Shown: piece after piece, positions 8,577 to 41,226 of the stretch
Layout: each line of letters starts with the position of its first letter
How positions within the stretch are numbered: position 1 is the stretch's first letter
Source: Actinomycetes bacterium
Lineage (GTDB): Bacteria; Actinomycetota; Thermoleophilia; Solirubrobacterales; Solirubrobacteraceae
DNA: 42,570 nt
Reading direction: 5' to 3'
Assembly (NCBI GenBank): GCA_021810705.1
Contig: JAJZID010000003.1
Location: forward strand, 1-42,570
Position numbers and translations under genes: made by a program
Notes under the pieces: generated by a model
What the model was told of the DNA's origin: nothing
Database searches by the model: none
The model's input: only the letters and a program-made list of their open reading frames with translations

Positions 8577-9032
8577 GTGAATCCGGAAGAGAGCCAGAAC
8601 ACAGATCTCGAGCCGGCCGTGGGCGCCGGCCTGGAACCGGCAGGGGCGGGCAGTGACCCAGACCTGGACCTGGTCGCGGCGGCGCTGCGCGCCGATCTGA
8701 GCGACATCGCCGCGTTTGTGGAGGGGCTTGCCACACGCCTCGAGGCGGCCCTGCCGGGCTTTGTCGAGGTCAAGCGCGTCCGCGGCGGTTTCCGTGGTCC
8801 GAAGCTGGTGGCTGAGATTGTGGTGACCGCCGGTGACCAGCGGCTGGTGCTCAGGCGCGATGGCGGCCGCGTCAGCGCCACGCGGTCGCGTTTCTCCGGC
8901 GGGATCGCGATCAAGACCGATACGCTCGAGCTGGACGCCTGGCTGAAGGCGCTGGCCGAGACGGTGGCGGTGCAGGCCCGCAGCAGCGAGCGCACACGTC
9001 AGGCGTTGCAGCGTTTGGTGCTCGAGAGTTAG
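8577..9032 (+). CDS. Conserved-looking hypothetical protein (151 aa)
   Basis: GTG preceded by TAGCCT-N7; coherent helical protein, no family recognised. Confidence 0.65.
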   Translation: MNPEESQNTDLEPAVGAGLEPAGAGSDPDLDLVAAALRADLSDIAAFVEGLATRLEAALPGFVEVKRVRGGFRGPKLVAEIVVTAGDQRLVLRRDGGRVSATRSRFSGGIAIKTDTLELDAWLKALAETVAVQARSSERTRQALQRLVLES

Positions 9033-9044
9033 GGAGGGTTTCGC

Positions 9045-9953: not shown

Positions 9954-9961
9954 GCGCGGCG

Positions 9962-10762: not shown

Positions 10763-11665
10763 CGGACCCTGGTTGGTCTGTGCGTGCTCGACCTGCAGGG
10801 TCGAGTGCGTCAGGCCGAAACGGTCACGCAGCAGGGCGGCAAGCGCGCGGCGAGTCTCATGGCAATCCTGCTCTGGATCCACGATCACGTGCGCGGAGAT
10901 GGCGTTGAAGCCGGTGGTCACCTCCCAGACGTGCAGGTCGTGAATCTCGACGACGCCGGGATGCGCAGCCATCGCCACGCCGATCTCAGCCGGGCTCACG
11001 CCCTCCGGTGCCGCCTCCATCATCACGCGAACCGACGCCCTGATCAGCCGCTGTGCAGCGAAGAGCATGACCGCTGCGATCAGCAGTGAGGCGATTGCGT
11101 CGGCGCGGTAGGCGCCGCTCAGCAGGATCACCAGCGCCGCGGCGGCGGTCGCGGCAAAGCCGAACAGGTCGGTCAGGATGTGCTGGTAGGAGCCCTCGAC
11201 GTTGAGGCTGCGCCTTGCATGGTCATGCTGATGCGTATGCGTGTGAGCGCCGAGCACGCGCACCGCAACCAGGTTCACGGCGATTCCGGCGAGCGCCACG
11301 GCGAGCACCGGGGTGGCGTTCACGTGCACCGGGTTGATCAGGCGATGGATGGCGCCGTAGACGATCAGCAGCGCCAGCACCAGCAGGGTCAGACCGTTTG
11401 CGTTGGCGCTCAGGATCTCGGCGCGCCCGAGCCCGAAGGTCAGCGCCCCCCGGGCTGGTCGCGTGGCCAGCTGCGCTGCCACGAGCGCCATTGCGAGGGC
11501 TGCGGCGTCGGTGAGCATGTGCGCGGCATCAGACAGCAGCGCCAGTGACCCGGAGAGCAGGCCGACTGTCACCTCCAGGGCCATGAACGAGACGATCAGC
11601 GCCAGCGTGAGCTTCAACTGGCGCGCCTGCGCCGCATTGTGGCTGTGCTGGTGGTCGCTGTTCAC
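10730..11665 (-). CDS. Cation diffusion facilitator (CzcD/ZitB-like) efflux transporter
   Basis: SGSLALLSDAAHMLTDAAAL, His-rich loop HTHTHQHDHA, HILTDLFG; GTG 11665 with TACGAT-N7 upstream. Confidence 0.92.
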   Translation of the reverse strand: MNSDHQHSHNAAQARQLKLTLALIVSFMALEVTVGLLSGSLALLSDAAHMLTDAAALAMALVAAQLATRPARGALTFGLGRAEILSANANGLTLLVLALLIVYGAIHRLINPVHVNATPVLAVALAGIAVNLVAVRVLGAHTHTHQHDHARRSLNVEGSYQHILTDLFGFAATAAAALVILLSGAYRADAIASLLIAAVMLFAAQRLIRASVRVMMEAAPEGVSPAEIGVAMAAHPGVVEIHDLHVWEVTTGFNAISAHVIVDPEQDCHETRRALAALLRDRFGLTHSTLQVEHAQTNQGPLQIELTRHAG

Positions 11666-11735
11666 GCGATTGATCGTAGGAGCGTTGGGAGCGAGCGTTG
11701 GGCGCGGCGTCGCGGCCACGCAGGACTCCAGCCTG

Positions 11736-12281
11736 TCAGTTCAGCGACGGATCCTCCGGCATCCGCGCCACCAGCGCATAGCTGCCGCCCTTGCGCTCCA
11801 GCACCGTCTGCCAAAGCTGCTCGGGTGTGGGCGTGAACGCATCGCCGTAGTTGGCCGGTTCGAGGATCCAGTCGCCGCGATCGAGCTCGCCATCGAGCTG
11901 GCCCGGGCCCCAGCCCGAGTGCCCTGCGAAGACGCGGGCGCGACGCACCCGGGCCCCTGCCAGGTCGGCGGCGGCATCGCTTGAGAGCACGCCGACGCTC
12001 GCGAAGGCGATCAGTGCAGCGTCGTTGCGATCCTCGAAGTCGGCCAGCACGATCACCGCCGAACGATTGACGGGCCCGCCGATCAGCACCTCGTCGTCGG
12101 GGTCGGTCAGCGCCACCAGCTGCGGCACCGCCTCGCCGACCTTCGACTGGGACGGCCGGTTCAACACCAGCCCGAGCGCACCGTCCTCGGTGTGCTCCAC
12201 CACCAGCACGACGGCACGCCAGAAGTCAGGGTCCTTCAGCGTGGGACCGGCGATCAGGAGTTGGCCGCGCGCGGAGTCCAC
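11736..12281 (-). CDS. AlgH/YqgE family protein (UPF0301)
   Basis: GQLLIAGPTLKDPDFWRAVVLVVEHTEDGALGLVLNRPS, GHSGWGPGQLDGEL. Confidence 0.92.
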   Translation of the reverse strand: MDSARGQLLIAGPTLKDPDFWRAVVLVVEHTEDGALGLVLNRPSQSKVGEAVPQLVALTDPDDEVLIGGPVNRSAVIVLADFEDRNDAALIAFASVGVLSSDAAADLAGARVRRARVFAGHSGWGPGQLDGELDRGDWILEPANYGDAFTPTPEQLWQTVLERKGGSYALVARMPEDPSLN

Positions 12282-14109: not shown

Positions 14110-14696
14110 GCGCCACCGCCGACAAAAGGCGACTGATCCTGAACGCGGCTGTCCGCGTGTTCGCGCGGCAGGGCTTTCACACCTGTCGTGTCTCGGACAT
14201 CGCCGACGAGGCCGGTGTCGCCTACGGCTTGGTCTACCACTACTTTCCATCCAAGGAAACGATCCTTGACACGGTCTTTCTCGAGCGTTGGAACCTGATG
14301 CTCGCGACGATCGCCGAGGCGCAGGCGAGCGAGGCTCCGCCTCGCGAGCAGCTGCGTCGCATCGCTTCCTTCATCGTCGACTCCTACAGGCGTGACCCGG
14401 ACGTCATGAAGGTGATTGTGGTGGAGGTGACCCGGGCCGCGAACACCTTCGGTCGCACTCACGTGCAGCGGATCATGCAGGCCTACGAGGGCATCGCCCA
14501 GATCGTTGCGCAGGCACAGAGGGCCGGTGTGTTCCGCCGCGAGGTTGATGCGCTGTTTGCCGCGCAGGCGTTCTACGGCCTGGTTGAGCAGGTGCTGACC
14601 CAGTGGATCTTCAGCGGCGAGGAGATCCCCGAGGCCGAGTTCGACCACGTCAAGGCTGAGATCGTGGAGATGATCTGCGGCGGTCTCGGCGGGTGA
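14106..14696 (+). CDS. TetR-family transcriptional regulator (FadR-like)
   Basis: GTG overlaps nitrilase stop; ILNAAVRVFARQGFHTCRVSDIADEAGVAYGLVYHYFPSKETIL. Confidence 0.92.
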   Translation: MSATADKRRLILNAAVRVFARQGFHTCRVSDIADEAGVAYGLVYHYFPSKETILDTVFLERWNLMLATIAEAQASEAPPREQLRRIASFIVDSYRRDPDVMKVIVVEVTRAANTFGRTHVQRIMQAYEGIAQIVAQAQRAGVFRREVDALFAAQAFYGLVEQVLTQWIFSGEEIPEAEFDHVKAEIVEMICGGLGG

Positions 14697-14726
14697 GCGG
14701 CCCCGGATCTGGTTGAATCACTGCAA

Positions 14727-14864
14727 ATGAAGGAGAGCCCATTGGTAAAGCGACTCATGTGGTCGGGCCTGCTGGCCGGCGTCGGCGCGCTCACGAACCT
14801 TGTCGCAACACGTCTGGCCGCCGTGATCTGGAAGCGGGTCTTCGACGAAGACCCACCGGAGTGA
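14727..14864 (+). CDS. Small membrane protein (45 aa), absent from ORF track
   Basis: MKESPLVKRLMWSGLLAGVGALTNLVATRLAAVIWKRVFDEDPPE; stop overlaps next GTG. Confidence 0.6.
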   Translation: MKESPLVKRLMWSGLLAGVGALTNLVATRLAAVIWKRVFDEDPPE

Positions 14865-15181
14865 CCACGGTGACCGAAGCGCAGCCTGGCTCGGTAGATT
14901 CGCAACGCGCGCGTCGTCCGCACTCCCTCCGGAAGCCTGCGGCTGGCGCGGATGCTGGCGAAACCATCCAGGCTCCCGCTGAGGCCGCAGGCGCCGGCGC
15001 AGGCGATCGCCCGGCGGTGGCGGCGCCGGACGCTGCCTCGCCCCTCAACGACCTGCTCAAGCGTCTCGGGCTCGCCCAGGCTGAAGCGCTGGTCCGCCGT
15101 CGGCCGGAGGTCGGCCTCGGCATAGCTTTTGCGGGCGGGCTTCTCGCTGCGACTATTCTCAAGCGTCTTGGCCGCAGATAA
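14861..15181 (+). CDS. Hypothetical protein with C-terminal TM segment (106 aa)
   Basis: In-frame GTG 14861 overlapping previous stop; Ala/Pro-rich then PEVGLGIAFAGGLLAATILKRLGRR. Confidence 0.6.
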   Translation: MTTVTEAQPGSVDSQRARRPHSLRKPAAGADAGETIQAPAEAAGAGAGDRPAVAAPDAASPLNDLLKRLGLAQAEALVRRRPEVGLGIAFAGGLLAATILKRLGRR

Positions 15182-15584
15182 CGAACAGCAGGACAGCATC
15201 GCGGGTGCCATCACCCAGGTCTCCGAGAGCCTTGGGATGCTCGTCCACGACGAGATCGAGCTCGCCAAGGCAGAGGTCGGTCAGAAGATCTCGAGCATCG
15301 CCCGTGGCTCCGCGGCGGTCGCCGCAGGTGCTGTGTTCGGCGTCTTCGCAGTGATCACGGCGCTGCTCACCATTGCCTGGGCGCTGGATACGATTCTGGT
15401 CAGCAACGTGGGCGATGTCTGGATCGGCTTCTTCATCGTGACGGTCGTGCTGGTCGTGCTCGCCGTGCTCTCGTTCCTCTTTGCCTGGCGCAAGCTGCGT
15501 GTTGGAGCGCCGACCCCGACGATGGCGATAGACGAGGCCCGGAAGATCCGCGAGACGGTCTCCGCCTCGGCCACCAAGAGCTGA
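15168..15584 (+). CDS. Phage-holin-family (Holin_3-like) membrane protein
   Basis: LVHDEIELAKAEVGQKISSIARGSAAVAAGAVFGVFAVITALLTIAWAL; probable TTG start at 15168. Confidence 0.75.
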   Translation: MAADNEQQDSIAGAITQVSESLGMLVHDEIELAKAEVGQKISSIARGSAAVAAGAVFGVFAVITALLTIAWALDTILVSNVGDVWIGFFIVTVVLVVLAVLSFLFAWRKLRVGAPTPTMAIDEARKIRETVSASATKS

Positions 15585-15599
15585 CGGCGCACGGCAGGA

Positions 15600-15835
15600 T
15601 GGCGACTCGCACACCCGATGAGATCCGCGCCTCGATCGAGCGCAACCGCCAAGAGCTCGGTAACTCGCTGGTTCTGCTGCGCGACGAGGTGGGCCAGCTG
15701 ACCGACTGGCGAGCTCAGCTGCGCCGCAACGAGCGGAGCCTGCAGATCGCCGCCGCGGCCGCCGGGTTCGTGTTCGCCGGCGGCGTCGGCGGCGCGCTCG
15801 GAGCTGTGCTGCGTCGCGGTCGCCGACGGCGCTGA
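15600..15835 (+). CDS. DUF3618-like small protein
   Basis: RTPDEIRASIERNRQELGNSLVLLRDEVGQLTDWR plus glycine-rich TM. Confidence 0.8.
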
Positions 15836-15852
15836 GGTCGGGCTCGCCGACC
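15836..15852. terminator. Short inverted repeat between convergent genes
   Basis: GGTCGG-GCTCG-CCGACC immediately after the DUF3618-like stop. Confidence 0.45.
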
Positions 15853-15891
15853 GCGCCCCGCCGGACGGCGCCAACCCGATCTCTGGCGGCG

Positions 15892-16746
15892 CTAGCGCAG
15901 CAGCGAACGCTGGGTGGCACCGATGCCCAGAAGCCCCGGACCGATGTGGGCGCCGATCACCGGCCCGATCTCCGAGACGAACACGGGCTCGCAACCGAAC
16001 ACGCCACGGCAGCGTTCCACCAGGTCGCTGGCCGCCTCGGGTGCGTGCGTATGCTGCACAACCCAGCCGTCGCGTCCGTTGCCAGCCAGCTGCTCGGCCA
16101 ACGCAACCAGGCGCTCGAACGCGCGTCGGCTGGTGCGCACCCGCTCGACGGCCGTGATCTCCGAGTTCAGTGACAGGATCGGCTTGATCTTCAGCGCCGA
16201 GCCCAGCAGCGCCTGAGCGCCACCGATGCGCCCACCGCGGCGCAGGTACTCGAGTGTGTCCAGGGCGAAGAGAAAATCGAGCGAAGCTCGGGCCGCCTGC
16301 GCGCGCGCGAGCACCGCGGCCGGCTCAGCGCCTGCGCCGGCGGCCGCGGCCGCGGCCAGCAGCATCAGCCCCTGCGCGCCGCAGGCCGTGCCTGAGTCGA
16401 CCACGTGCACCAGGGCTGCCGCCTCGCCGAGCTGCGCGCGGGCTTGCTCGGCGCTGCGCACCGTTCCCGAGAGCCCACCGGAGAGGTGGATCGAGACGAT
16501 CTCATGGCCGTCTGCCACGAGCGGCTCGTAGACCGCCAGGAAGTCACCGATCGAGGGCTGTGAGGTGGTGGGCAGGTCGCCGCCCGCCGCCAGCCGCTCG
16601 TAGTAGGCGTCGTAGTCGGTGACCTCGCGCTCGGGTCGTGCGCCCGTGCTGCCATGCACGTAGAGGCTGACCTCGTGGATCCTGAGAGCCTCGACCTGCT
16701 CGCGCGGCAGGTAGTGGCAGGTGTCTGAAACCAGGGCTACGGGCAT
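15892..16746 (-). CDS. DegV family (fatty-acid-binding) protein
   Basis: VALVSDTCHYLP, TTSQPSIGDFLAVYEPLVADGHEIVSIHLSGGLSGTVRSAE. Confidence 0.92.
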   Translation of the reverse strand: MPVALVSDTCHYLPREQVEALRIHEVSLYVHGSTGARPEREVTDYDAYYERLAAGGDLPTTSQPSIGDFLAVYEPLVADGHEIVSIHLSGGLSGTVRSAEQARAQLGEAAALVHVVDSGTACGAQGLMLLAAAAAAGAGAEPAAVLARAQAARASLDFLFALDTLEYLRRGGRIGGAQALLGSALKIKPILSLNSEITAVERVRTSRRAFERLVALAEQLAGNGRDGWVVQHTHAPEAASDLVERCRGVFGCEPVFVSEIGPVIGAHIGPGLLGIGATQRSLLR

Positions 16747-16760
16747 GCGCCCGCCCGACC

Positions 16761-17171
16761 CTACAGCAGGTTCTCGATGCTCAGCGGCGCGGGCTCAGCC
16801 GCGCTGGCCGCGGCTGGCGCTTCCGCCATCGCTGTGCCGGCGGAGCCGCTGACGCCGAGCAGCCGCTGGAGCTCGCCCGTCTCGTGCATCTCCATGACGA
16901 TGTCACAGCCACCGACCAGCTCGCCGTCGATGAACAGCTGCGGGATCGTGGGCCAGCCGGACAGCGCCGAGAGCTCCTGGCGGATCCTCGGATCCGGGAG
17001 CACGTTGACGGCCGCAAACGGCGCCTCCAGGCTCTCAAGCACCGCCACGGTGCGTGCTGAGAAGCCGCACGCCGGCGCGTCCGGCGTGCCCTTCATGAAC
17101 AGGATCACCGGGTTCTCGGCGATCGCGCTCTTGAGCGCGTCGCGCATCTCGTTGGTGGCTGGGTCGCTCAT
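16761..17171 (-). CDS. Monothiol glutaredoxin (Grx4/GrxD-like)
   Basis: NPVILFMKGTPDAPACGFSARTVAVLE, WPTIPQLFIDGELVGGCDIVMEM. Confidence 0.93.
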   Translation of the reverse strand: MSDPATNEMRDALKSAIAENPVILFMKGTPDAPACGFSARTVAVLESLEAPFAAVNVLPDPRIRQELSALSGWPTIPQLFIDGELVGGCDIVMEMHETGELQRLLGVSGSAGTAMAEAPAAASAAEPAPLSIENLL

Positions 17172-25265: not shown

Positions 25266-25563
25266 ACACGCACGCGGCCGCACGAAGCTCGCGACGCGCG
25301 TCCGGGTCGAGACAGTGCAGGCGCGGCGGCGGCAACCGTTACGAGTGTGTGCGCCGCAGCTATCAGCCAGGCTGGTGCCGCGGGCGAGCAGCGCTCCTGA
25401 ACATGATAAAACGCTGCATTCGAGCCATGAACTTGACCTGGTCTGTATGGTTTTTTGACTGTGGCGAGGTGGCCCGACGCGGTCAATTGTTGAGTCCGGC
25501 TTGTGCGCGGCTGGACCGAGCGATAAATTGTGCAGGGTTCCAAGGACGGAAGAGCGGGATGTG

Positions 25564-26490
25564 ATGAGACAGACGATCGATAGGAAGTCGATGGCAACAG
25601 CCTCCATGAAGCCCGACCGGACGGTGCGGACGCGGTCGTGGACCAGCAGCAAGCGCGAGCGTCGTGATTACCGTACGCGGCCGCGTGTGACGACGGTCGT
25701 GCCGACGCTGAACGAGGCGGCCAACCTGCCACATGTGCTGAAGCGACTGCCAAACGGAGTGGACGAGCTCATCATCGTCGATGGCCACTCCACTGACGAC
25801 ACCGTGGCAGTCGCACGGGGTCTCAGGCCTGACGCCCGGATTGTGCTGCAGGACAGAGTCGGCAAGGGCAACGCGCTCGCGTGCGGGTTTGCGGCGGCGC
25901 GCGGCGACATCCTTGTGATGATCGATGCCGACGGTTCGACCGACCCGGAGGAGATTCCGGCGTTTATCAGACCGCTGTTCGACGGGGCCGACTTCGTCAA
26001 GGGGAGCCGCTATCAGGCGGGCGGCGGCAGCGCCGATTTGACGCTGCTGCGCAGCGCCGGCAACCGCGCACTCAGCGGTGCTGTCAACCTGTTATTCGGA
26101 ACTGCCTATACCGACCTGTGCTACGGGTACGGCGCGTTCTGGCGACGTTGCCTACCCCAGTTGCACGTCACCTGCGACGGCTTCGAGGTCGAGACGGTCA
26201 TCAACGTGCGTGCTGCCAAGGCCGGTCTCAAAGTTGTGGAGGTTCCCAGCTTTGAGCGCGAACGCATCCATGGCTTGAGCAACCTGAACGCCTGGCGCGA
26301 TGGCATACGGGTCCTGCAGACTATCGTCAGCGAGCGCGTGCGCCCGCTGCCGGAGCCGTCAGATGCGTGGCTTCCGGCATTCCGGGAGCTGCCCAAGGAA
26401 GCAACCCCGTTGCCGCTGAACCAGGTCGATCGGCGTCGGGACCAACCCCGGTTGTCGGCCCTCCGTGCTGCTGGTCCGGTCCAGCTCTAG
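25564..26490 (+). CDS. Family 2 glycosyltransferase (DPM1-like)
   Basis: TTVVPTLNEAANLPHVLKRLPNGVDELIIVDGHSTDDT, ILVMIDADGSTDPEEIPAFI. Confidence 0.92.
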   Translation: MRQTIDRKSMATASMKPDRTVRTRSWTSSKRERRDYRTRPRVTTVVPTLNEAANLPHVLKRLPNGVDELIIVDGHSTDDTVAVARGLRPDARIVLQDRVGKGNALACGFAAARGDILVMIDADGSTDPEEIPAFIRPLFDGADFVKGSRYQAGGGSADLTLLRSAGNRALSGAVNLLFGTAYTDLCYGYGAFWRRCLPQLHVTCDGFEVETVINVRAAKAGLKVVEVPSFERERIHGLSNLNAWRDGIRVLQTIVSERVRPLPEPSDAWLPAFRELPKEATPLPLNQVDRRRDQPRLSALRAAGPVQL

Positions 26491-26687: not shown

Positions 26688-27761
26688 CTAGCTGGCCTGC
26701 CAGACTCGGACCGAGGCCACCTGCATAGAGTCCGGTTCGATAAGGCCGCCCGTTCCGTAGCCAACGCCGTTCGAGATGATGATGAACATCGGGGCGGAGG
26801 TGATGCCTGTTGTGACCTGTCCAACCTCGGTGCCGTCGTAATAGTAGGTAACCGATCCGGGCTGCCAATCCGAGGCGAACGTGTGCCAGCCCGGGGTGAT
26901 AGCCGTATCGCAGCCGCCCGGGGCGCCGATCAGGTCGTGGAAGTGGTAGCAGGCACTCCCACTAAGCCCTTCAAAGATGTCGTCCTCGCCATCTGCCGGC
27001 CAACTCTGGCCGTCCGTCCAGACGGCCGGCCAGTCAGCGATCTTTCCGCCGTCGCTGGGAACGTAGACCTCGGCTTGGAGTACCCCATAGGTGTACTCGA
27101 AGCCTGGCCCGGTACGTCCGTCATACGGGTTGGTTGTAACCATCGCAGCGCTGTATGGCTTGGTCTCGCCGTCACAGGTTGAAGGCGTCTGAGTGATGTT
27201 CAGGTGCATGGTGCCGTCACCTGGGAATGTGACGTTGCTGGGCGTGTAGCAGTCAGCTTCGCTGGTGCCGCCCACTCCAGCAGTGACGCCCGAGCCGAAC
27301 CAACCAGTGCGCCAGTCGGTCGGCAGCGACGGACCGGTGAACGACCAATTAGCGACAAGCGTCCAGTTACCAGCGATGCCGAGCGGCTGGGTTGAGCCTG
27401 ACGTGCCCGTGGTCGGCGGCGCGCTGGGGGTGGTCGGTGTGGACGTCGGTGCTAGCGGCGCCGGCGCCACCGGGGGGGGAGGGGCCTGGGGTGTTAGCGG
27501 CGGTGGCGGAGGCGCCGGTGCCGCCAGTGCCCGTCGCCAAGCTGTCCGTGGGCCGACCATCGGATGGACGGCGACGGCGAGGTGTGCGCGCTGCAGGTGT
27601 CCGCTGCCACGGGCCGAGAGGTGCTGTTGCCGAGGCACGGACCCGGTCGGTCCGTGACCGGCGTGGCGGTTCGTTGCTGCCATGGCGGTTCCGGTTGCGG
27701 CCAGTGACGCCGCTGCGAGTGCAGCAACCGTACGCTGGAGTGTGCGTGGTGATGAGGTCAT
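26688..27761 (-). CDS. Secreted glycoside hydrolase family 16 protein, copy 1
   Basis: Signal-peptide-like N-terminus (RTVAALAAASLAATGTAMAA), Pro-rich linker, WPADGEDDIFEGLSG (ExDxxE catalytic motif). Confidence 0.88.
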   Translation of the reverse strand: MTSSPRTLQRTVAALAAASLAATGTAMAATNRHAGHGPTGSVPRQQHLSARGSGHLQRAHLAVAVHPMVGPRTAWRRALAAPAPPPPPLTPQAPPPPVAPAPLAPTSTPTTPSAPPTTGTSGSTQPLGIAGNWTLVANWSFTGPSLPTDWRTGWFGSGVTAGVGGTSEADCYTPSNVTFPGDGTMHLNITQTPSTCDGETKPYSAAMVTTNPYDGRTGPGFEYTYGVLQAEVYVPSDGGKIADWPAVWTDGQSWPADGEDDIFEGLSGSACYHFHDLIGAPGGCDTAITPGWHTFASDWQPGSVTYYYDGTEVGQVTTGITSAPMFIIISNGVGYGTGGLIEPDSMQVASVRVWQAS

Positions 27762-28300
27762 CTGAGCTGTCCGTTTGAGCTGGTGGTCGGACCGGGCGCC
27801 ATCGCTGTCTGACGCCCTTGTGAGGGTTCGGTGCGGTGACGCCTCGCCTCGCCTAATCGCGGGCAAAGGTGGACAGATGACCTAGCCGGGGCGGCTATGC
27901 GACCTGCTGCCGGGCAGGGCGGGCCGGATAGAGACGGGTCCCGCGTGCCCGTGCGGAACCGCTGCGGAGCACGTCTGCATTGATCGGCAGAGCAATGGGG
28001 CTGGGCGTGCCACGGGCAACGGCCTGGTGCACTCCGTGGCCACGGCCGAACGGGATCTGACGTGGTGCTGTCTTCCGCATCAAACCATGCTCGGCGGGGA
28101 TGAGCGGTGGTGCTCCGGTGCACCGATCGCCTGCAGCCTCCCGCCGCGGCGGTGTGGCCTGGCACGCCGTGGCTCAAGGGGGCAACCCGGTGGTGGCGAA
28201 CCGGCAGTGGCGTATGGATCGCAAGGGGAGTGCAGCGATCTGCGCCTGACGCGCACCACACAACTGGTATCAGGCCATCAAGTGATAGCTTAAGGCCTCA

Positions 28301-28342
28301 ATGCGCAGTGAAGTACGTCAATGCAGCTGGTTGCTGCCGTGA
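28301..28342 (+). CDS. Putative leaderless 13-aa leader ORF
   Basis: TAGCTT (28286-28291), 9 nt, ATG; MRSEVRQCSWLLP, TGA overlapping GTG 28339 of the main frame. Confidence 0.3.
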   Translation: MRSEVRQCSWLLP

Positions 28343-30174
28343 AGTTAGCTGCCGGCGGGGGCGATACATCGCTGCAAGCCGTGGTTCTCGCGGCGGGGTT
28401 GGGGCGCAGGATGCAGCCTCTGGCCAGAGGCGGCCACAAGGCGCTGCTACCCGTGGCCGGGACCACCATACTTGGGCGGATCATCGATGGCCTGGAAACG
28501 CTCGAGCTTGAGCGCGCAACGATCGTGACAGGGTGGCAGGCTGAGGCGGTTCGAGACTTCCTGGTCGAACGGTCTCCAAGCTTTGATCTCCGGTTCGTCG
28601 AGAATCCAGACTACGCCGAGACCAACAACGTCGTCTCGCTGTCGTTGGCCCTCGAGAGCATGACCTTCGACACCGACATAGTTCTGATCGAGTGCGACTT
28701 GCTGTTCGATCCCACCTTGCTGCAGCGCCTGGTCACGGCCGAGTGGCCGAACGTCGCCTTGCTGGACCGTTACAGGACCGGGATGGACGGAACGGTTGTA
28801 TCGGTCAGCAACGGCTTCATTGATGCCGTCTACCCAGCAGAGTCACAGCATGCGGCCTTTGACTACGAGAACAAGTTCAAGACACTGAACATCTACCGGC
28901 TGCATCGTGACTTCTGCCGCAACACGCTGGCACCACTCATCAGGACCTACGCGAATGAGGTAGATGCCAACTCGTACTACGAGCTGGTCTTGGGCATGCT
29001 CGCAAACCTGCCGGCCCATCGCATCGCGGCCGAGGTTGTCACCGGCGAACGGTGGTTCGAGGTCGATGATCCCAACGACATCGTGACCGCGGAGTTCGGG
29101 TTCGAGCCCGGGCGACGTGGCGAGATACTCAAGCGTGCGTTCGGCGGCCACTGGAACTTCGATGTGCTCGATTTCTCGCTGATGCGCAACGCCTACTTTC
29201 CGACTGGGTCGATGCTGGCCGCGATGCGTCACGCTCTGCCGGAACTCACGGCTTCATATGGTTCATCCCAGGACGTGCTCAACGAGAAGCTCAGCTACTT
29301 CCTCGGGTGCCGGAGCGATCGCGTTCAGGTCCTGCACGGCGCCAGTCAGGGGTTCCCGATCCTAGAGCGCCTGTTTGCCACAGCCAAGACTGTGACACCC
29401 GAGCCCACGTTCGGCGAGTACGCCCGAGCCTTCCCGTCGGCGGACCACTACCTTGATGCGCCCGGTATCGACAACGTGGCGCTGGAGCAAGCCGCGGCGG
29501 CCAGTGACGTTTGTGTGGTCGTCAACCCGAACACAACAACCGGGACACTGATCGAGTCCGACGTCTTGTTCGACCTGGCCACGCGGCTCGGCGACACGAC
29601 CTTCATTGTGGACGAATCGTTCCTCGCCTTCAGCGGCCAACCTTCGCTGATTGAAAGACTGGAACAGGAACCGCTCAGTAACGTGATCGTTCTAACAAGC
29701 CTCAGTAAGACGCTCGGTTGCCCGGGACTGCGGCTCGGCTATCTGTACTCGTGCGATGGGGACGTGGTACGCGCGGTGGGAAGTGCGCTGCCGGTCTGGA
29801 ACGTCTCGGCCCCGGCAGAGTTCCTGCTCGAGCTGATGCTGAAGTTTCGCCCAGCGTACAAGCGGTCGCTGGACATGACTGCTGCCGACCGGGACGCGTT
29901 TGCCGAGGAGTTGCGGGGCCTGGACGTTGTCGCTCACGTCTACCCTAGCGGCGGCGACTTTCTGCTGGTGCAGCTGCGCGGTGACGATCATGCTGCGGCT
30001 GTGCTCCGCGAGCGGCTCCTGCAGAAGTACAGCATCGAGATCAAGGATGTGAGCGAGCGGTTCGCCGACCGGCGCCCGCGAGTTCGCTTGGCGGTGCGAC
30101 TGGCCACCGAAAACGCTCGCCTCATCGACGCGATTGCGAGTATCGCCAGCAAGGAGGAGGCGGTCGACGGATGA
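28321..30174 (+). CDS. Bifunctional LicC/PntC-like nucleotidyltransferase fused to HisC/CobD-like PLP aminotransferase/decarboxylase
   Basis: N-term VVLAAGLGRRMQPLARGGHKALLPV, PDYAETNNVVSLSLAL, ECDLLFDP, KFKTLNIYRL; C-term NPNTTTGTLI, VDESFLAFSG, LTSLSKTLGCPGLRLGYLYS. Start could be GTG 28339. Confidence 0.88.
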   Translation: MQLVAAVKLAAGGGDTSLQAVVLAAGLGRRMQPLARGGHKALLPVAGTTILGRIIDGLETLELERATIVTGWQAEAVRDFLVERSPSFDLRFVENPDYAETNNVVSLSLALESMTFDTDIVLIECDLLFDPTLLQRLVTAEWPNVALLDRYRTGMDGTVVSVSNGFIDAVYPAESQHAAFDYENKFKTLNIYRLHRDFCRNTLAPLIRTYANEVDANSYYELVLGMLANLPAHRIAAEVVTGERWFEVDDPNDIVTAEFGFEPGRRGEILKRAFGGHWNFDVLDFSLMRNAYFPTGSMLAAMRHALPELTASYGSSQDVLNEKLSYFLGCRSDRVQVLHGASQGFPILERLFATAKTVTPEPTFGEYARAFPSADHYLDAPGIDNVALEQAAAASDVCVVVNPNTTTGTLIESDVLFDLATRLGDTTFIVDESFLAFSGQPSLIERLEQEPLSNVIVLTSLSKTLGCPGLRLGYLYSCDGDVVRAVGSALPVWNVSAPAEFLLELMLKFRPAYKRSLDMTAADRDAFAEELRGLDVVAHVYPSGGDFLLVQLRGDDHAAAVLRERLLQKYSIEIKDVSERFADRRPRVRLAVRLATENARLIDAIASIASKEEAVDG

Positions 30175-30863
30175 ACTGGAAAGCGGTGTGGTCAGCAAAG
30201 GCGTTCCAGGCGCCGGATGGTTCGGTGTTGTCCGGCCTCATGGCAGCCGATGGATATGACACGCCATTTGGCAGGCTGAGCGAGGAGGCCTGGCTTGGTT
30301 ACGTCCGCCATTGGGCCCAGGCCCTCGGCGTCGAAGCAAACACATCCGTCTTCGAGGTGGGATGCGGCGCTGGCGCGTTCCTCTATGAGCTCTACCGCAA
30401 TGGTGTCCAGGTCGCGGGCATGGATCTGGCAGCGGCGCTAATCCAGGCCGCCAGAGAGGTCATGCCGGACGGGCACTTCGCCGTTGGCGAGGCGTCGGAG
30501 TTGAGCCCCGACCCGCCCGCGGACGTGGTCCTCTCGTGCGGCGTGTTCTTCTACTTTCCTTCGCTGGAGTATGCGCGAGACGTGCTGGCACGCATGGTCG
30601 CCAAAGCTCGCAGGGCCGTGCTCATCCTCGACGTGCCCGATCTGGCCCTGCGTGAACGCGCAGTCGCTGACCGGATCGCGGCAGCCGGTGGCCCAGAGGC
30701 CTACCGCGAGCGCTATCAGGGTCTGGAGCACACGTACTTTGACCGAGGCTGGCTTGCCGGGGAGATGCGCAAGCTCGGTCTTGTTGACGTTCGCACGGTG
30801 GATCAGGCTATTCCCGGCTATCGGAACGGCGCCTTCAGGTTCAACGCCTGGGGTTACAAGTGA
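30171..30863 (+). CDS. Class I SAM-dependent methyltransferase
   Basis: ATGA overlap with upstream gene; VFEVGCGAGAFLYELYRNGVQVAGMDL. Confidence 0.88.
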   Translation: MNWKAVWSAKAFQAPDGSVLSGLMAADGYDTPFGRLSEEAWLGYVRHWAQALGVEANTSVFEVGCGAGAFLYELYRNGVQVAGMDLAAALIQAAREVMPDGHFAVGEASELSPDPPADVVLSCGVFFYFPSLEYARDVLARMVAKARRAVLILDVPDLALRERAVADRIAAAGGPEAYRERYQGLEHTYFDRGWLAGEMRKLGLVDVRTVDQAIPGYRNGAFRFNAWGYK

Positions 30864-30864
30864 A

Positions 30865-31584
30865 ATGCCATCGCTGCGGACCGCTTGGACGTGGCGGCAC
30901 GGGCCGTCAGCAGAGCAGAGCCACGAGCTGCTTGTGCGCCTGTGTGTGGTACGTGCGAAGGTCGGACGCCAGGCGCGCTGGTCCCGGCTGGTGCGAGTAT
31001 CCCAGCAATGGCTGGCACGACGCGAGCTCCAGGACCTCAACGACGCGCTGAGCGCCACACCGCTGGCTGGCAGGTATTGGATCTGCGGCGGTCTGCTTCT
31101 CGGCTGGGCCCGAGAAGGGAGGGTGCTCAGCCATGACGCGTGGGACTTCGACTTCTACCTCCGCGCCGAGGACGCACATCTGCTTGCTGCCGCCACCGGG
31201 GCGCTGCGGCGCGCGGGCTTCAAACGCCTATATCGGTTTAGAAACGCAACCGGGCTGGTAACCGAGTACGCGTTCGTACGTCACGGTGCGAGGTTCGAGT
31301 TCTTCCTGCTCTTCGAGACGGCTCGGTCAGGAACGAGAACCTACTTTCTGATCGAGGGTGGCGAGGAGATCGAAAACGAGATTGCCGACCAGCCGCTCGA
31401 GGAGTTTGACTTTCTGGGTCGTAAGTGGCTCAAGCCTCGGTTTCACGAGCAGCATCTTGCAGAGACGTACGGAGAGTGGCAGGTACCAGACAAGGGCTGG
31501 AGCGCCAGGCGCGCTCCTTGCGTGGTCGCTATTCGCCCTTGCCCGAGCCGGAGTATCGCCTGGATCTCGGACGACGCACGGTAA
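30865..31584 (+). CDS. LicD-like (fukutin/LicD nucleotidyltransferase-fold) phosphotransferase
   Basis: YWICGGLLLGWAREGRVLSHDAWDFDFYLRAED resembles the LicD GxLLGxxRxGxxxxxDxDxD(F) core; ATG directly after the methyltransferase stop. Confidence 0.72.
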   Translation: MPSLRTAWTWRHGPSAEQSHELLVRLCVVRAKVGRQARWSRLVRVSQQWLARRELQDLNDALSATPLAGRYWICGGLLLGWAREGRVLSHDAWDFDFYLRAEDAHLLAAATGALRRAGFKRLYRFRNATGLVTEYAFVRHGARFEFFLLFETARSGTRTYFLIEGGEEIENEIADQPLEEFDFLGRKWLKPRFHEQHLAETYGEWQVPDKGWSARRAPCVVAIRPCPSRSIAWISDDAR

Positions 31585-34006
31585 ACACCTTACGATGCCC
31601 AGCGACTCGATGCCGCGGAGGACCAGCGGCGAATCGGCTCGTGGGCGTGGAGTGAACTAAGCCTGGTTCGCTCACGGTCGGCTGCACAGCTCGTACGTGT
31701 GCGGGATCTTGGTGCCGGCGCTCAGCGAGATAGACAAACGGCCCGGCGACCATACCCCGCAGTTCGGCCGAGCCCAGACCCGCAGCGCGAAGCCCGCTGC
31801 CGTCACGCGACTGGCGGATGCGGTGCAGGAGTTTCAGCATGCGCCAGCACCCAGGGAGCGCGCGCCGGATGAGTGCACGCCGGGTCGACCTGGCGATGAG
31901 GAACTTTGTGAGGTAGGCGCTCAGGCCAAGGCCGTAGGCGTACATCTGGTCGCGGAGTGCGTCCGTCCCCAAGCGATGGTCGTGCCAGACGAGCGCGCTC
32001 GGTTCATAGCTCAATGCGTAGCCGGCAGTCAGGAGCCTGACGAAGATGTCCAGATCCTCGCCGCCGCGCGTGCGTGAGCCTGCTCCCAGACACTCATCGA
32101 AACCGCCGAGCGCGAGCAGTGCAGAGCGGCGACACGCGAGATTCGCCCCGGTGCCGAAGTTCCCGGGCGAGAAAGGGTGAAGAAATGAGTCAGCGGTGGT
32201 CCGCTCGCTCGTGAAGACGCGTGGAACGAAGCTCGATGACCAGCCGATGCGTCGCTCGAAGTAGTCGGCCTCTGGCCGCGACAGCGACGCGCTGACCACC
32301 GATCCGGTCACGCATGCGATATCTTGGTTGTGTTCAAATCCTCGCAGAATGCCGTTCAGCCAATGCGGGTCCACCGTGACATCGTCGTCTGTGAACGCGA
32401 TGATCTCGTTCCGAGCTTCAGCAACCGCGCGATTGCGCGCCTTTGACAAGCCGGGCAGCGGTTCGCGCACGTAGCGGACGCGCGCGTCCTGTCTGTGGAA
32501 ATCGGTCGCGATGGCCTCGGTTTCGGGGCCGCGCGAAGCGCTGTCCACGACGATGATCTCGAAGTCAACGTGCTTGAGACGGAGCAGCGACTCGATTGTG
32601 CGCCGCAGTCCCTGAGGACGGTCCCGCGTGCAAACGGCAACTGAAACCGGCCGCCGGATCGCGGAAGCCCACAGCGGGTGCTTCATCGCTGCTTGCAGCG
32701 CCGGGTCGAACTTCTGCTTTGCGAGGTTCACGGCCCGGCTGGCATCGAGTGTCCCTCCAGAGAGCTCTATATCGAGCAAACCCAACGGTGTCCCGGCGTG
32801 CCGGACCAGCAAACGTGCACGAGCAAGCGGCAGGCCGGCTTCGTCGACGGCTCGGGGCGGGAGCGACGGGGCTGCCAGATCGAGCTCGCCGACCCAGGCT
32901 GGTCTGAAAGTCGGGAAAGGCGCGACAGGTGTCGCCGCCGTGCCCTTCCCTGGTGGGCGGCGTCTGCCGATGGAGCTACTAGAGCCAGCTGCGTAGCCGG
33001 CTGATGTGACAGCCAAGCCGACGATGATGGCCGCCGCGCGGGCGATTCCGCTGGGGTCTCCGAGCAGAGCGGCGCGCATGCCTCGCAGCACGCCAGCGGG
33101 AAGTGTCCGTGCCACGTAGGTGCGCTCGCTGGCGAGCGCCGCGTCGGTCCCAACTCTTCCGGAAACCATCGCTTTGGAGCGGCCTTCGTCCCAGCACCGC
33201 CGAACGAAGTACCTGAAGCGGGTTCGCTCTGCTTCGACGACATGATCTACGACGGCGCTTTGGCGCAGGACAACGCGGCCTCCTGTAGCAGCTACGGCGC
33301 GGATTGCGAATTCCGTCTCCTCGCAACCCAGGGCACCGCCGCTTGCGCGTCCGATGCCGTTGGTGAACCCTCCGACAGAGCTTAGGACCCCGCGCCTGAA
33401 GGCCATGTTGGCGCCAATCGGGTTACGGACCTCGTGGCTGTCAGGTGGCTGCCCACGGTATGAACACCCCACCACCCAGAGGAACTCCGCCGGCAGCCAG
33501 TGAGGTGCGCCGACCATCCAGCGGGGGATGACCGAGCCTCCGACGCCGATCACGGTCGCGTCGGAGAAAGCCATGAGCAGTTCCTCAAGCCAGTCCGCTC
33601 GGGGAACCGCGTCGTCATCAAGGAACACCACGATCTCGCCCCGGGCGGCCGCCGAACCGGTGTTGCGTGCTCCCGCCAGTCCGGGCTCCTCCACGTTGCG
33701 GAGAAGTCGCAGTTGCTGATTGACGTCGCCGAGCTCAGCTCGGATCATGTCCACCAGCGCCGGTCCCCCGTCGACTACGATTAGCAGCTCGTCGTCTCCC
33801 GACAGCTGCGACCTCATCGCTGCCGCAGCGTCGGCTAGACAAGCCAGCCGGCGGGCCGAGTAGCAGCACATCACGACGGTGACGGTTGGCCTGGACACCG
33901 GTGACTGAGTCAGATGCGCGCGGACGCCGACGCCAGGCCACGTCCTGAGGCCGCTGATGCTGATTCCTGAGCCTTGTAGATCTTGGCCTGGGTCCGGACC
34001 GTGCAT
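31529..34006 (-). CDS. Double GT2 glycosyltransferase (two GT-A domains in one 825-aa polypeptide)
   Basis: Domain 1: VTVVMCCYSARRLACL...IVVFLDDDAVPRADWLEELL; domain 2: VSVAVCTRDRPQGLRRTIESLL...IIAFTDDDVTVDPHWLNGIL. Confidence 0.9.
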   Translation of the reverse strand: MHGPDPGQDLQGSGISISGLRTWPGVGVRAHLTQSPVSRPTVTVVMCCYSARRLACLADAAAAMRSQLSGDDELLIVVDGGPALVDMIRAELGDVNQQLRLLRNVEEPGLAGARNTGSAAARGEIVVFLDDDAVPRADWLEELLMAFSDATVIGVGGSVIPRWMVGAPHWLPAEFLWVVGCSYRGQPPDSHEVRNPIGANMAFRRGVLSSVGGFTNGIGRASGGALGCEETEFAIRAVAATGGRVVLRQSAVVDHVVEAERTRFRYFVRRCWDEGRSKAMVSGRVGTDAALASERTYVARTLPAGVLRGMRAALLGDPSGIARAAAIIVGLAVTSAGYAAGSSSSIGRRRPPGKGTAATPVAPFPTFRPAWVGELDLAAPSLPPRAVDEAGLPLARARLLVRHAGTPLGLLDIELSGGTLDASRAVNLAKQKFDPALQAAMKHPLWASAIRRPVSVAVCTRDRPQGLRRTIESLLRLKHVDFEIIVVDSASRGPETEAIATDFHRQDARVRYVREPLPGLSKARNRAVAEARNEIIAFTDDDVTVDPHWLNGILRGFEHNQDIACVTGSVVSASLSRPEADYFERRIGWSSSFVPRVFTSERTTADSFLHPFSPGNFGTGANLACRRSALLALGGFDECLGAGSRTRGGEDLDIFVRLLTAGYALSYEPSALVWHDHRLGTDALRDQMYAYGLGLSAYLTKFLIARSTRRALIRRALPGCWRMLKLLHRIRQSRDGSGLRAAGLGSAELRGMVAGPFVYLAERRHQDPAHVRAVQPTVSEPGLVHSTPTSRFAAGPPRHRVAGHRKVFTVRRPRSRRYSGSGKGE

Positions 34007-35134: not shown

Positions 35135-36019
35135 TCACGACCGGCACGTCGCGTCGATGAAGTCGAGCAACGTGCCCTGCGCCGACCCGACCTTCCGCGC
35201 GAAGAGCTTGCCGGCCTGGGCGGCCGCCGTAATGGCATCGGCATCGTCCTGTGTTAGCCATTCTGGATGTTGTGTCGGATCGGTTGTCGGCCAATGGATG
35301 AACCAGAGATTGTCGTCCAGCACCGTGGCGGCAGCTTCACCGACCAGTTCGGGAGACTTGAGGATCGAGTGAGCGCAGGCCTCGTCAGGGATGAACATTC
35401 GCTTCCAATATGCGCGCAAGCGGGGGTTGTCGTCGATCACCTGTAGGAGTAGTCGGGCGTGGTGTCGGGCGTAGACCTTCCACTGGGCCCCGCCATGGAG
35501 GTTCAGGCAGGCGGGAGGTGTCTGACGCCAAATCGGTAGCGGCCTTTGACGGATCATCATCAGGTGATCGCCGAAAGTGAGGAACCTGTGCTCAAAGCGC
35601 CACATGCCTCCGTCGTTGGCCCATGGAGCGTCCCAGGTGTTGCGTGGCAGAGCGTGGAGCTCGAAGTGTGAGCACCCGGGCGCGTCTGCCAGGTGGTCGT
35701 CGATAGCCTCGGCAGAGGCAAGCGGGTAGCAACTGCCCGACATGATGGCGATGTGGCCTGCGCGCGACTGCGACAGCGCGGCGCGCAGACCGTCCAGTTC
35801 TGCTTCGACGAGCGACCAACTGCCGAGCGAGACCGAGCGCCGAGGCAACGCATGCACGCTGCGCATGCCTGGCGGAATCATTGCCTGCGCCTCCCGTCGG
35901 CTTGTGCGGCGATCGCAGTGCAGGAAGACCTCTGCACCGCCAAGTGCAGAAAGCGTCCTTCTCACCATTGGTGCATCCTGGTGTGCGAGCACCACAAATG
36001 CGGTGTTACGCAGGCTCAT
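35135..36019 (-). CDS. GT14-like beta-1,6-N-acetylglucosaminyl/xylosyl-transferase (core-2/I-branching type)
   Basis: AFVVLAHQDAPMVRRTL, VFLHCDRRTS, HIAIMSGSCYPLAS, LHGGAQWKVYARHHARLLLQ. Confidence 0.82.
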   Translation of the reverse strand: MSLRNTAFVVLAHQDAPMVRRTLSALGGAEVFLHCDRRTSRREAQAMIPPGMRSVHALPRRSVSLGSWSLVEAELDGLRAALSQSRAGHIAIMSGSCYPLASAEAIDDHLADAPGCSHFELHALPRNTWDAPWANDGGMWRFEHRFLTFGDHLMMIRQRPLPIWRQTPPACLNLHGGAQWKVYARHHARLLLQVIDDNPRLRAYWKRMFIPDEACAHSILKSPELVGEAAATVLDDNLWFIHWPTTDPTQHPEWLTQDDADAITAAAQAGKLFARKVGSAQGTLLDFIDATCRS

Positions 36020-37515
36020 CCCTTTAGGCCACGAGGCCGGGGCCGACGAGGCGTTAGCGGTAGGCGGTCAAGATCGGGATTGGCACGGAGCCAGCGCAGC
36101 CCGAACGCCACGGCGGCCGCGCACAGTACTCCTAGAAGACCGCGGAGCAGGAGGAACGGAAGGTTCGTTGGAATGAGCACGGTGGCAAGGCACACCATTG
36201 TGGTCACGGCTATCGCGCGGGATAAGCTGCGAGGTGGAGCCGGTGCCGGATGTAGGCCCTGAGACAGCCGGTCGGTCATCACGTAGACGAAGGTGAGTGC
36301 CGCGAGTGTGGCGAGTGCGGCGCCGAACAGACCCAGCTCGGGCACAAGCAGCAGGCTCAGCAGGAGGTTGAAGCCGGCTGCGCAAAGGGCAATCCGCGCG
36401 ATGGCGCCGGTTCTGCCGTCCCGAATGAGGCCACGACTGCTGGTGGTGGCTCCAGCGTACGGAAAGGTCGCAACAATAAAAATCACCACGTCAAGCTGCA
36501 GCGTGTCGGGTCTGAAGCTCCCCGGTGCCCAGAGCCTGAGTAACAATGGTGACGTGGCGCTCAGTCCGATCGTTGTAGGGATGAGCAGCGCGTACAGCGC
36601 GTCCCGACTATGCGCCAGCACTCGCGGGACGGCAGCCTCGTCTGTCAGCGCAAAGACCCGGGGCATCCACGCCTCGAAGAGGGCATACACCAGTAGGCTA
36701 GCGATTGATCCGACGTTGCTGGCGACCGTGAATCGCGCCGCGGCTACTCTGCCGCTGTCGGCATTGAGCACCAGTCGTGATGAGGTCGACATGATGAAGT
36801 TGGCGATCGTCACCGGGATGAGCGGCAGTGCGAAGCCGAGCGTGACACGCATCAGGTGATGGTCAACGCGCCTGAGTGGTTCCGGGCGAGCCAGTGCCAG
36901 CGCCACCACCAGCGTGGCGGCTTGACCAATCAGCTCCCCAAGTATGTACTCGTCCGCGGTCCGGCGTACGAAGAGCACCAGCCCCAGGCTCAAAGCCTCT
37001 GCGAGGCTTGTCTGAAGGAGTGTGACGAGTGCGAATTGGTCGAGTCGGTCTCGGCTGCGAAGCAGCGCCAGGACGGTCTGTGAGACGGCGCTCAGCATCG
37101 CCCAGGCGACGGCGTAGGCGACGGCGCCGCGATATGGGCCGAGGCGCAAGCTGCCCGCCCAAAGTGGGCCGGAGATCGTCAAGACCAGGAACGCGAGCGC
37201 CGCGATCACCAGGCTCACCGTGATGAGCTTGCGAGCCGCGCGATCGCCGGCGCCTGCGTAGGTGCGCTGGATGGCAACGTTGAGACCGGAGCCGGCGACC
37301 GCGACCAGCAATTGCATGATTGCCACCGATACGGCCGCCAGCCCGTAGCCGCTCGGGCCTAACAAGCGCGTGATGATCGGCGTGAGCAGCGTGGCAAAGC
37401 CAAGCGGCGTCGCCCAGAGCGCGACGTATGCCAGATCACGACCGAACAGTAGTCGCAGGCCGTTGCGCGCCGTTCCGACGGGAGGTTCGAGATCCTGCTG
37501 CTCCAGCGGACTCAC
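36016..37515 (-). CDS. Wzx/MVF-type polysaccharide flippase
   Basis: ~14 TM; LLFGRDLAYVALWATPLGFATLLTPIITRLLGPSGYGLAAVSVAIMQLLVAVAGSGLNVAIQRTY. Confidence 0.9.
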   Translation of the reverse strand: MSPLEQQDLEPPVGTARNGLRLLFGRDLAYVALWATPLGFATLLTPIITRLLGPSGYGLAAVSVAIMQLLVAVAGSGLNVAIQRTYAGAGDRAARKLITVSLVIAALAFLVLTISGPLWAGSLRLGPYRGAVAYAVAWAMLSAVSQTVLALLRSRDRLDQFALVTLLQTSLAEALSLGLVLFVRRTADEYILGELIGQAATLVVALALARPEPLRRVDHHLMRVTLGFALPLIPVTIANFIMSTSSRLVLNADSGRVAAARFTVASNVGSIASLLVYALFEAWMPRVFALTDEAAVPRVLAHSRDALYALLIPTTIGLSATSPLLLRLWAPGSFRPDTLQLDVVIFIVATFPYAGATTSSRGLIRDGRTGAIARIALCAAGFNLLLSLLLVPELGLFGAALATLAALTFVYVMTDRLSQGLHPAPAPPRSLSRAIAVTTMVCLATVLIPTNLPFLLLRGLLGVLCAAAVAFGLRWLRANPDLDRLPLTPRRPRPRGLKG

Positions 37516-39761: not shown

Positions 39762-40703
39762 CTAGCCACGAGTCCAGACGCGCACATACGAGACTCGCAT
39801 CGAGTCACTAATAATCGCCTTGGGGAACCGTCGCGAGACCGTATTGAGCACGACCAAATACTCGGGACTGTGGGTTACGCCGCGTGTCACGGTCCCAACA
39901 CGAATGCCGTCATAATAGTAGGTGACTGCATGGGGCTGCCAGTCGACGGCTACAACGTTCCAGCCTGGACTGAGCCAGCGATCACACCCGATAGCTTGAC
40001 CTGAGCGGTTGTGGAAAGTGTGACAGGCGACACCACCGAGCCCCTCGAGGATGTCGTCCTCTCCGTCCCTCGGCCAGTTATGACCCAGTGCCATGACGAC
40101 CGGCCAGTCGGCGAGCAGTCCATGCGTTCCGGGTAGATATACCTCCGCTTGGACGACCCCATATCTGAATTGAAAGCCACCAGAGCGGCGGCCATCGTAA
40201 GGATTCGTCGAGATCAGTGCACCTGTGTAGGGCTCCGTCCGATTGCTGCAGCGAGACCGCCGATGAGTGACCAGGAACGCGAGGCCATGAGCGCTGAAAT
40301 GCAGGTTGGCGGGGTTGTAACAGGCTCGCTCGTCGCGGTTCACCGGACCGGTCACGCCGTTGCCAAACCAGCCTGGCCGCCAGATGCTGGAGTCGAGCGA
40401 GGGGCCGTCGAACGTTTGGTTGAGAATGAGGTGCCAGTCGCCCGGGATGCCGAGCGGGCGCCTGAGTGAGCGGCCGAAACGCGCTGCTCCACTTGCGAGT
40501 CGCGTGCGGTGGCCTGGGTTGCCGCCGCCGGGGGGCGGCGCCGGAGCTTGTGGCAGCGCCGGGTTGCCGCCGGATAGCTGAATCAGCACGCCGGCCATCG
40601 AGGCGAAGATCGCTAGCAGCGCCGTGAACGCGAGCAATGTCCGGCGGTGTCGGCTCGCCGGGCCTAATGGGCTAGGCGCTGCTGTGTTTGTATCGGAACG
40701 CAC
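39762..40703 (-). CDS. Membrane-anchored or secreted glycoside hydrolase family 16 protein, copy 2
   Basis: TM/signal RRTLLAFTALLAIFASMAGVLI, Pro-rich linker, WPRDGEDDILEGLGG (ExDxxE); strong similarity to copy 1; GTG 40703. Confidence 0.86.
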   Translation of the reverse strand: MRSDTNTAAPSPLGPASRHRRTLLAFTALLAIFASMAGVLIQLSGGNPALPQAPAPPPGGGNPGHRTRLASGAARFGRSLRRPLGIPGDWHLILNQTFDGPSLDSSIWRPGWFGNGVTGPVNRDERACYNPANLHFSAHGLAFLVTHRRSRCSNRTEPYTGALISTNPYDGRRSGGFQFRYGVVQAEVYLPGTHGLLADWPVVMALGHNWPRDGEDDILEGLGGVACHTFHNRSGQAIGCDRWLSPGWNVVAVDWQPHAVTYYYDGIRVGTVTRGVTHSPEYLVVLNTVSRRFPKAIISDSMRVSYVRVWTRG

Positions 40704-41226
40704 AGTACGGCAGTGGTTTCGTCGGTGGCGGGCACGCGAAGTCCGCGCTGAGCGGCTGCATGAACTCCGCCACAGGGTACTGCAAGGCCTGGGTCCCCGA
40801 CCAGCCTGCCCGCGTGCAGGAGTGCGGGCGGCGGCTGGTCGAAGTGCGCCCATGCCTGGTGCGCGAGTGTGAAGCGGTGTGCAGACCGTATGCGAACCGA
40901 ATCGGTTAGGCGCAGGCGCTTCCGGGATCGGTTCGGTGTCGGCCCTGTGGAGCTACGTCGGGTTGGTGCCGAGGAGCGGCTCGGGGTCAGACGGGGCGGT
41001 GAGCTCTGTGATGTGCGGTGCGCTGCGGGGTGCTCTGCACGCCAGTGTGGGCGCGCGGTCGGCGCGCCGTCCTCCCTCGCGCGCAGGGCAGGCCGGACGT
41101 CCCGCAGGGCGTTCGCAGTCCTCGCGCGAGCTTGCTCCGGGTGCGGCGTCGCAGGCGTGTGTGGGCCGGTTTAGTGCTAGAGCGCCGCAGAGCTCAAGGT
41201 CTTCAGCTGGCGGTCGCGGCCCAGAG

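Follow-up and report, generated by a model that had tools for sequence, protein, structure and literature searches.

Surface glycans are decorated by the Lic pathway (LicA/LicC/LicD) through a cytidylyltransferase and LicD-type glycan transfer, with choline that is salvaged by LicA. A related arrangement is found in the Pnt pathway, where PntC-AEPT of Treponema denticola combines a LicC-type cytidylyltransferase with a pyridoxal phosphate (PLP) enzyme in one polypeptide, encoded near LicD-like transferases or glycosyltransferases (PMC6697681; PDB 6PD1/6PD2); its AEPT part is a class V transaminase that acts on a phosphonate and needs PepM/Ppd. We analysed a stretch of 42,570 nucleotides (hereafter the window; contig JAJZID010000003.1 of assembly GCA_021810705.1, an actinobacterial genome of the Solirubrobacteraceae), which forms contig 10 in an assembly of 2.39 Mb and 69.8% completeness. 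It carries a three-gene cassette in which a nucleotidyltransferase (NTase) is likewise fused to a PLP enzyme, although one of class I/II and CobD-type, and is followed by genes for a methyltransferase and a LicD-like phosphotransferase. With moderate confidence, we propose that this cassette is a self-contained pathway for the tailoring of a surface polysaccharide, fed by O-phospho-L-serine; in contrast to the salvage of choline in the Lic pathway, its donor would be made de novo by decarboxylation. As a mechanism hypothesis, the view of the cassette as a variant of Lic/Pnt tailoring is supported.

The fusion gene (28321..30174, + strand) encodes 617 amino acids, with the NTase domain at about residues 17-260 and the PLP domain at about residues 265-610, and its structure model has a predicted local distance difference test score (pLDDT) of 93.8. 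Homologues of this open reading frame (ORF) start near 28372. The two following genes have the same direction: an S-adenosylmethionine (SAM) methyltransferase of a family that we call MTa (30171..30863, + strand), and a LicD/FKRP-like phosphotransferase of a diverged subfamily (30865..31584, + strand). A sequence-only reading of the window had taken the first gene for a LicC/PntC-like NTase joined to a PLP enzyme of the HisC/CobD type, the second for a SAM methyltransferase and the third for a LicD-like transferase, and all these calls stand after profile and structure searches. Its claim that the methyltransferase ORF begins within an ATGA overlap with the 3' end of the fusion is borne out at 30171-30174; the LicD-like gene, which it had placed two nucleotides after the methyltransferase stop, has its ATG at 30865, one base past the TGA at 30861-30863.

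In the proposed scheme, the PLP domain would take O-phospho-L-serine from the normal route of serine biosynthesis and decarboxylate it to phosphoethanolamine, which the fused cytidylyltransferase would join to cytidine triphosphate (CTP), yielding cytidine diphosphate (CDP)-ethanolamine. N-methylation of the amino group by the methyltransferase would most likely follow activation and would add one, two or three methyl groups, the trimethyl form being choline-like. In the cytoplasm, the LicD/FKRP-like enzyme would then move the phospho-amino-alcohol from the CDP donor to a lipid-linked glycan that belongs to the exopolysaccharide locus next to the cassette. From comparative sequence and structure analysis we infer all four reactions, and likewise which substrate is used, when and how far methylation proceeds, and which glycan accepts the group. 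Our confidence is highest for a CDP-activated amino-alcohol as the product, and decreases through LicD-type transfer and phosphoserine as the substrate to methylation of the head group. That the cassette makes, activates, methylates and attaches such a group had been suggested by the sequence-only reading, and is strengthened computationally by neighbourhoods across phyla, split versions of the fusion, a fusion of all three NTase, PLP and methyltransferase domains, and the clustering of the PLP domain with the decarboxylase SMUL_1544. The individual chemistries are known. In the open-access papers searched we found no description of a decarboxylase/cytidylyltransferase fusion, and the combination fed by serine seems not to have been reported in them.

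The cassette is more than a chance assembly, as confirmed by the number of homologous fusions and by a peak of LicD genes beside them. A search of 399 genomes of the same class (E <= 1e-30) matched 11, including the window's own, and 8 of these matches reach both domains (L013 when read through a stop codon; L014 is cut by a contig end). A scan of GTDB, based on a six-sequence alignment and two peptide patterns, kept 80 of 102 loci, which is a lower bound; thus, about 20 phyla hold at least 80 homologous fusion loci, nearly all matched over their full length; among these phyla are Actinomycetota, Acidobacteriota, Fibrobacterota, Bacteroidota, Cyanobacteriota, Chloroflexota and Methanobacteriota. 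One of the carriers, Pedobacter sandarakinus (L060), is culturable. The NTase and PLP genes are separate but adjacent in the split versions at loci L023 and L021. Stand-alone CobD-like PLP genes in L024 (6790-9376) and L025 (6218-8372) were set aside as candidate split versions, since their neighbours are glutamine-amidotransferase-like genes and not NTases. Neighbours were counted around 83 loci from our own six-frame ORFs with iterated hidden Markov models (HMMs) built from the neighbours, at self-chosen cut-offs (E 1e-8 for LicD, 1e-30 for the methyltransferase and 1e-10 for CDP-OH_P). LicD-type genes lie within 3 kb of the fusion in 44 of the 83 loci, and their density per 100 kb is 22.8 up to a distance of 1 kb, drops to 0.58 between 3 and 6 kb, and reaches 0 between 6 and 10 kb, with 2 matches in the 693 kb that lie 3-10 kb from a fusion. 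At the same distance of up to 3 kb, the MTa family is found in 25 loci and CDP-alcohol phosphatidyltransferases in 10.

Which partner accompanies the fusion varies by lineage. It is mostly LicD, and in a second group CDP-OH_P_transf (L021, L070, L073, L078, L084, L086, L099, L102, L103, L105 and the split locus L023); further CDP-OH_P genes are present in L062 and L068. Glyphos_transf was matched by three members of the neighbour set of clade A of the fusions, and is found in L050. LicD, CDP-OH_P and Glyphos_transf are three unrelated families that share a CDP-linked donor, and the product of the fusion is for this reason very probably a CDP-alcohol. In L007 (2-631 and 628-2490), L023 (6100-9897), L099, L102, L103 and L105, a CDP-alcohol phosphatidyltransferase gene follows the fusion or split pair, and a divergent methyltransferase, MTb, is encoded nearby. 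Loci with both CDP-OH_P and MTb possibly encode a Kennedy-like route by which bacteria make lipids from CDP-ethanolamine.

The NTase domain was matched by NTP_transf_3 (MobA-like NTases; residues 20-140, E 1.7e-17), and by profile its closest solved relatives are LicC (1.4e-24) and PntC (2.5e-21). R30 and K40 of the GxGxR...K signature are kept in 79-80 of the 80 fusions, in which R30, K40, E124, D126 and E221 are conserved at 99-100%. PntC binds its small primary amine via Glu104/Glu196, whereas LicC has Asp105/Asp192 (PMC6697681). E124 of the fusion aligns with Glu104 of PntC, and E221 falls one column off Glu196 in the HMM alignment; in our reading, E221 is probably its counterpart. Such a PntC-type glutamate pair suggests a small primary amine, and not phosphocholine, as the compound that the NTase activates, in which case methylation of the head group, if any, would come after activation.

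These glutamates, together with the PntC-AEPT fusion as the top match of the whole fusion model in Foldseek, also fit a phosphonate pathway, in which the NTase would activate 2-aminoethylphosphonate like PntC and the methyltransferase would make an N-methyl aminophosphonate. Genes for such a pathway lie beside two fusions. The plain motif EDKxxxxxNS identified true PepM in two methanogen loci, L066 and L096, both metagenome-assembled genomes (MAGs) of Methanomicrobiales with fusions of clade A, and in each PepM is fused to a CTP_transf_like domain. L096 encodes on one strand (5246-11785) PepM, a Ppd-like thiamine pyrophosphate enzyme, MTa, a class V aminotransferase and the fusion, and L066 has the same set of genes in another order (4962-8677 and 14550-17001). 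A query of 49 fusion-bearing genomes at 1e-15 added PepM matches in the genomes of L041, L075 and, weakly, L052. The remaining 44 genomes, including that of the window and the complete genome of Bacteroides fragilis Q1F2 (L077), had no PepM match at this threshold, which argues against PepM as a general requirement. The PF13714 matches of the window were read not as PepM but as an isocitrate-lyase relative and PanB, so that no PepM, which the sequence-only reading had named as a pointer to phosphonates, was found in this genome, a weak result as the assembly is 70% complete. Moreover, the PLP part of the fusion is of class I/II and not a class V aminoethylphosphonate transaminase, which L066 and L096 encode as a separate gene. 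We consider a phosphonate pathway very improbable for the window, but substrate choice of the fusion may differ between lineages. PepM was also found in the genome of one B. fragilis strain (L075) and not in that of the other (L077).

The identity of the first product depends on the PLP domain, which was matched by Aminotran_1_2 (residues 300-605, E 1.8e-20) and is thus of class I/II. K463, D431, R471 and R589 are invariant across the 80 fusions, and we take them, from the fold family, to be catalytic and PLP-binding residues. In a comparison of a profile of 49 fusions with solved structures, 6oux ranked first (E 1.4e-66), before 3ftb, 3fkd and CobD of Salmonella (4e-46). In Foldseek, 6oux carries the name SMUL_1544; this decarboxylase, from Sulfurospirillum multivorans, reportedly acts on serine phosphate. 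SMUL_1544 is a stand-alone enzyme that serves norcobamide (B12) assembly, unlike the fused domain described here. According to a proposal in a proteomics paper, it supplies ethanolamine phosphate for norpseudo-B12, and the title of the primary paper states that it governs norcobamide biosynthesis. In a careful tree of 60 rows, the fusions and SMUL_1544 form one group (100/98), separate from 21 CobD and 14 HisC rows, and a larger quick tree supports their clade with a value of 99 (Shimodaira-Hasegawa-like approximate likelihood ratio test, SH-aLRT). SMUL_1544 is a long row, and its exact position is less sure than the side of the tree on which it stands. The kinship with SMUL_1544 favours conversion of phosphoserine to phosphoethanolamine by the PLP domain, and narrows, but does not prove, the first product as phosphoethanolamine. 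The same conversion of serine phosphate to ethanolamine phosphate for a surface polysaccharide has been described for Cj1436 of the Campylobacter jejuni capsule, which we liken to the fusion by the described reaction alone; in that pathway, an amide bond links the ethanolamine, its phosphate is removed, and neither CDP activation nor LicD takes part (PMC12409886).

Decarboxylation of O-phospho-L-threonine, with 1-amino-2-propanol phosphate as the attached group as in B12 biosynthesis, is suggested by the CobD-like features of the domain: CobD structures match well, and CobD (TIGR01140) is the best NCBIfam model. Its 165 bits are however far under the cut-off of 290.55 bits, although 9 of 20 CobD comparison loci also score under it (CobD and HisC rows are loci matched by TIGR01140 and TIGR01141, and the context of B12 genes was read for part of the CobD loci). 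SMUL_1544 is closer and stands within the clade of the fusions, with the CobD rows outside. In addition, this route would require a threonine kinase, and no kinase family was prominent among the tallied neighbours of the fusion, as expected if phosphoserine is the substrate. Taken together, this makes phosphothreonine a rather unlikely substrate. We give still less credence to a PLP domain that acts as a transaminase, for instance on dihydroxyacetone phosphate to form serinol phosphate like Campylobacter Cj1437, which would lead to another amino-alcohol in the CDP product. HisC-type transaminases share the fold, and one capsule pathway employs both chemistries (PMC12409886). The HisC rows are nevertheless well apart (100/100) from the fusions, which group with SMUL_1544; the HisC model TIGR01141 gives the fusion 100 bits, under its cut-off of 276.55 bits, and the window's genome carries a HisC of its own elsewhere, at C320.

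Phosphoethanolamine or its CDP ester would be the substrate of MTa in the pathway that we favour. The 21 MTa homologues align over their full length, with W3, W7, R168 and R223 invariant, and in several phyla the MTa gene lies immediately beside the fusion or overlaps it. In L065, a Syntrophaceae MAG, a single ORF of 839 amino acids (7474-9993) contains NTase, PLP and methyltransferase domains, with a LicD gene next to it; as the third domain of an NTase-PLP protein, MTa is tied to small-molecule or head-group steps. Its place within the phosphonate operon of L096 likewise suggests a small amine, not a sugar, as the target. MTa thus probably N-methylates the amino-alcohol head group. A methyltransferase that modifies the glycan itself, at a sugar or elsewhere, beside a fusion and LicD-like protein that function as proposed, would overlap with this pathway; it is consistent with the generic family assignment of MTa and with the presence of other methyltransferases in the exopolysaccharide locus, but appears unlikely given the adjoining, overlapping and fused genes and the operon of L096.

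Fukutin-related protein (FKRP) is the best match of the LicD-like protein both by profile (E 8.5e-5) and in Foldseek (3.6e-6), and ranked first, including complexes with cytidine monophosphate (CMP) and CDP-ribitol, for the AlphaFold2 model (pLDDT 84). FKRP differs in that it is eukaryotic, has extra length and shares about 20% identity with the LicD-like protein. The motif GGLLLGWAREG..HD..DFDF, with its acidic metal-binding part, is conserved, the protein belongs to the wider LicD/FKRP fold, and at least nine other loci have a member of the diverged subfamily close to the fusion. No hydrophobic segment was detected in the LicD-like protein, which is for this reason probably cytosolic.

The cassette is flanked by family-2 glycosyltransferases, a Wzx-like exporter, an FkbM-type and another methyltransferase, and a GH16-like protein. 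A double family-2 glycosyltransferase (31529..34006, - strand), a candidate builder of the acceptor, is convergent with the LicD-like gene, whose 3' end (31584) overlaps its own; homologues are encoded near the fusion in L033, L035, L036 and L072. Homologues of the family-2 glycosyltransferase of the exopolysaccharide locus (25501..26490, + strand) are found near the fusion in L033, L036, L037 and L072, and those of the GH16-like protein (26688..27866, - strand; PF00722 under its cut-off) in L033 and L036. This recurring glycosyltransferase locus likely supplies the acceptor. The same locus also contains a Wzx-like polysaccharide exporter (Polysacc_synt; 36016..37515, - strand) with 11 hydrophobic segments. 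A protein with one hydrophobic segment and no Pfam match is encoded at 39765-40853, and its homologues coincide with the GH16-like genes in L033 and L036.

Several observations weigh against the proposed pathway. All four partner families are absent near 19 of the 83 loci, and 21 of the 46 loci of clade A have no MTa within 3 kb. The LicD-like protein scores 21.1-21.3 bits against PF04991, under the gathering cut-off of 22.6 bits. The window's fusion belongs to clade A, whereas SMUL_1544 joins another subclade on a long branch, which makes the transfer of its substrate to clade A uncertain. Whether or not a methyltransferase gene is nearby, the fusions have the same amine-pocket residues, including E124 and E221 (99% conserved). 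Although plant phosphoethanolamine N-methyltransferase is the best PDB match of MTa by whole-sequence score, the match covers the SAM-binding cores only, and we do not claim membership of that family since the score is the sum over two generic SAM-binding domains. In the archaea of L066 and L096, finally, the fusion and MTa probably serve, or adjoin, an aminoethylphosphonate pathway.

Other gene arrangements were observed around the fusions. A class I/II aminotransferase gene lies just upstream in one subclade (L020, 3677-5134; L022, 600-2012), and aminotransferase-like genes are upstream in L088, L090, L091, L094, L095 and L104 as well. The Fibrobacterota loci L040, L047 and L050 share a similar order upstream of the fusion, a Glyphos_transf-like gene (PF04464 in L050) and then two long ORFs. 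In B. fragilis (L075, L077), a LicD gene is located directly downstream of the fusion, and both look like capsule loci. The pooled tally of neighbours includes the Sulfatase, DUF3413 and 60KD_IMP families.

How phages, hosts and immune proteins recognize a bacterium is affected by phosphocholine and phosphoethanolamine on its surface, and scavenged choline is needed for the phosphocholine decoration that is best known. No LicA (PF01633) was found in the window's genome, in line with the sequence-only reading, a weak result given that the assembly is 70% complete. A serine-fed cassette would, if true, explain decoration where choline is scarce. It would also be a testable counterpart of PntC-AEPT in which a decarboxylase replaces the transaminase. 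We also put forward, more tentatively, a broader possibility in which the fusion makes CDP-ethanolamine from serine, and methylated CDP-choline-like donors feed both glycans (via LicD and Glyphos_transf) and Kennedy-like lipids (via CDP-OH_P relatives); this would give bacteria and some archaea phosphocholine-type surfaces without choline uptake or phosphatidylserine. If the proposed pathway is correct, it would assign a function to a fusion of about 20 phyla, including B. fragilis and methanogens.

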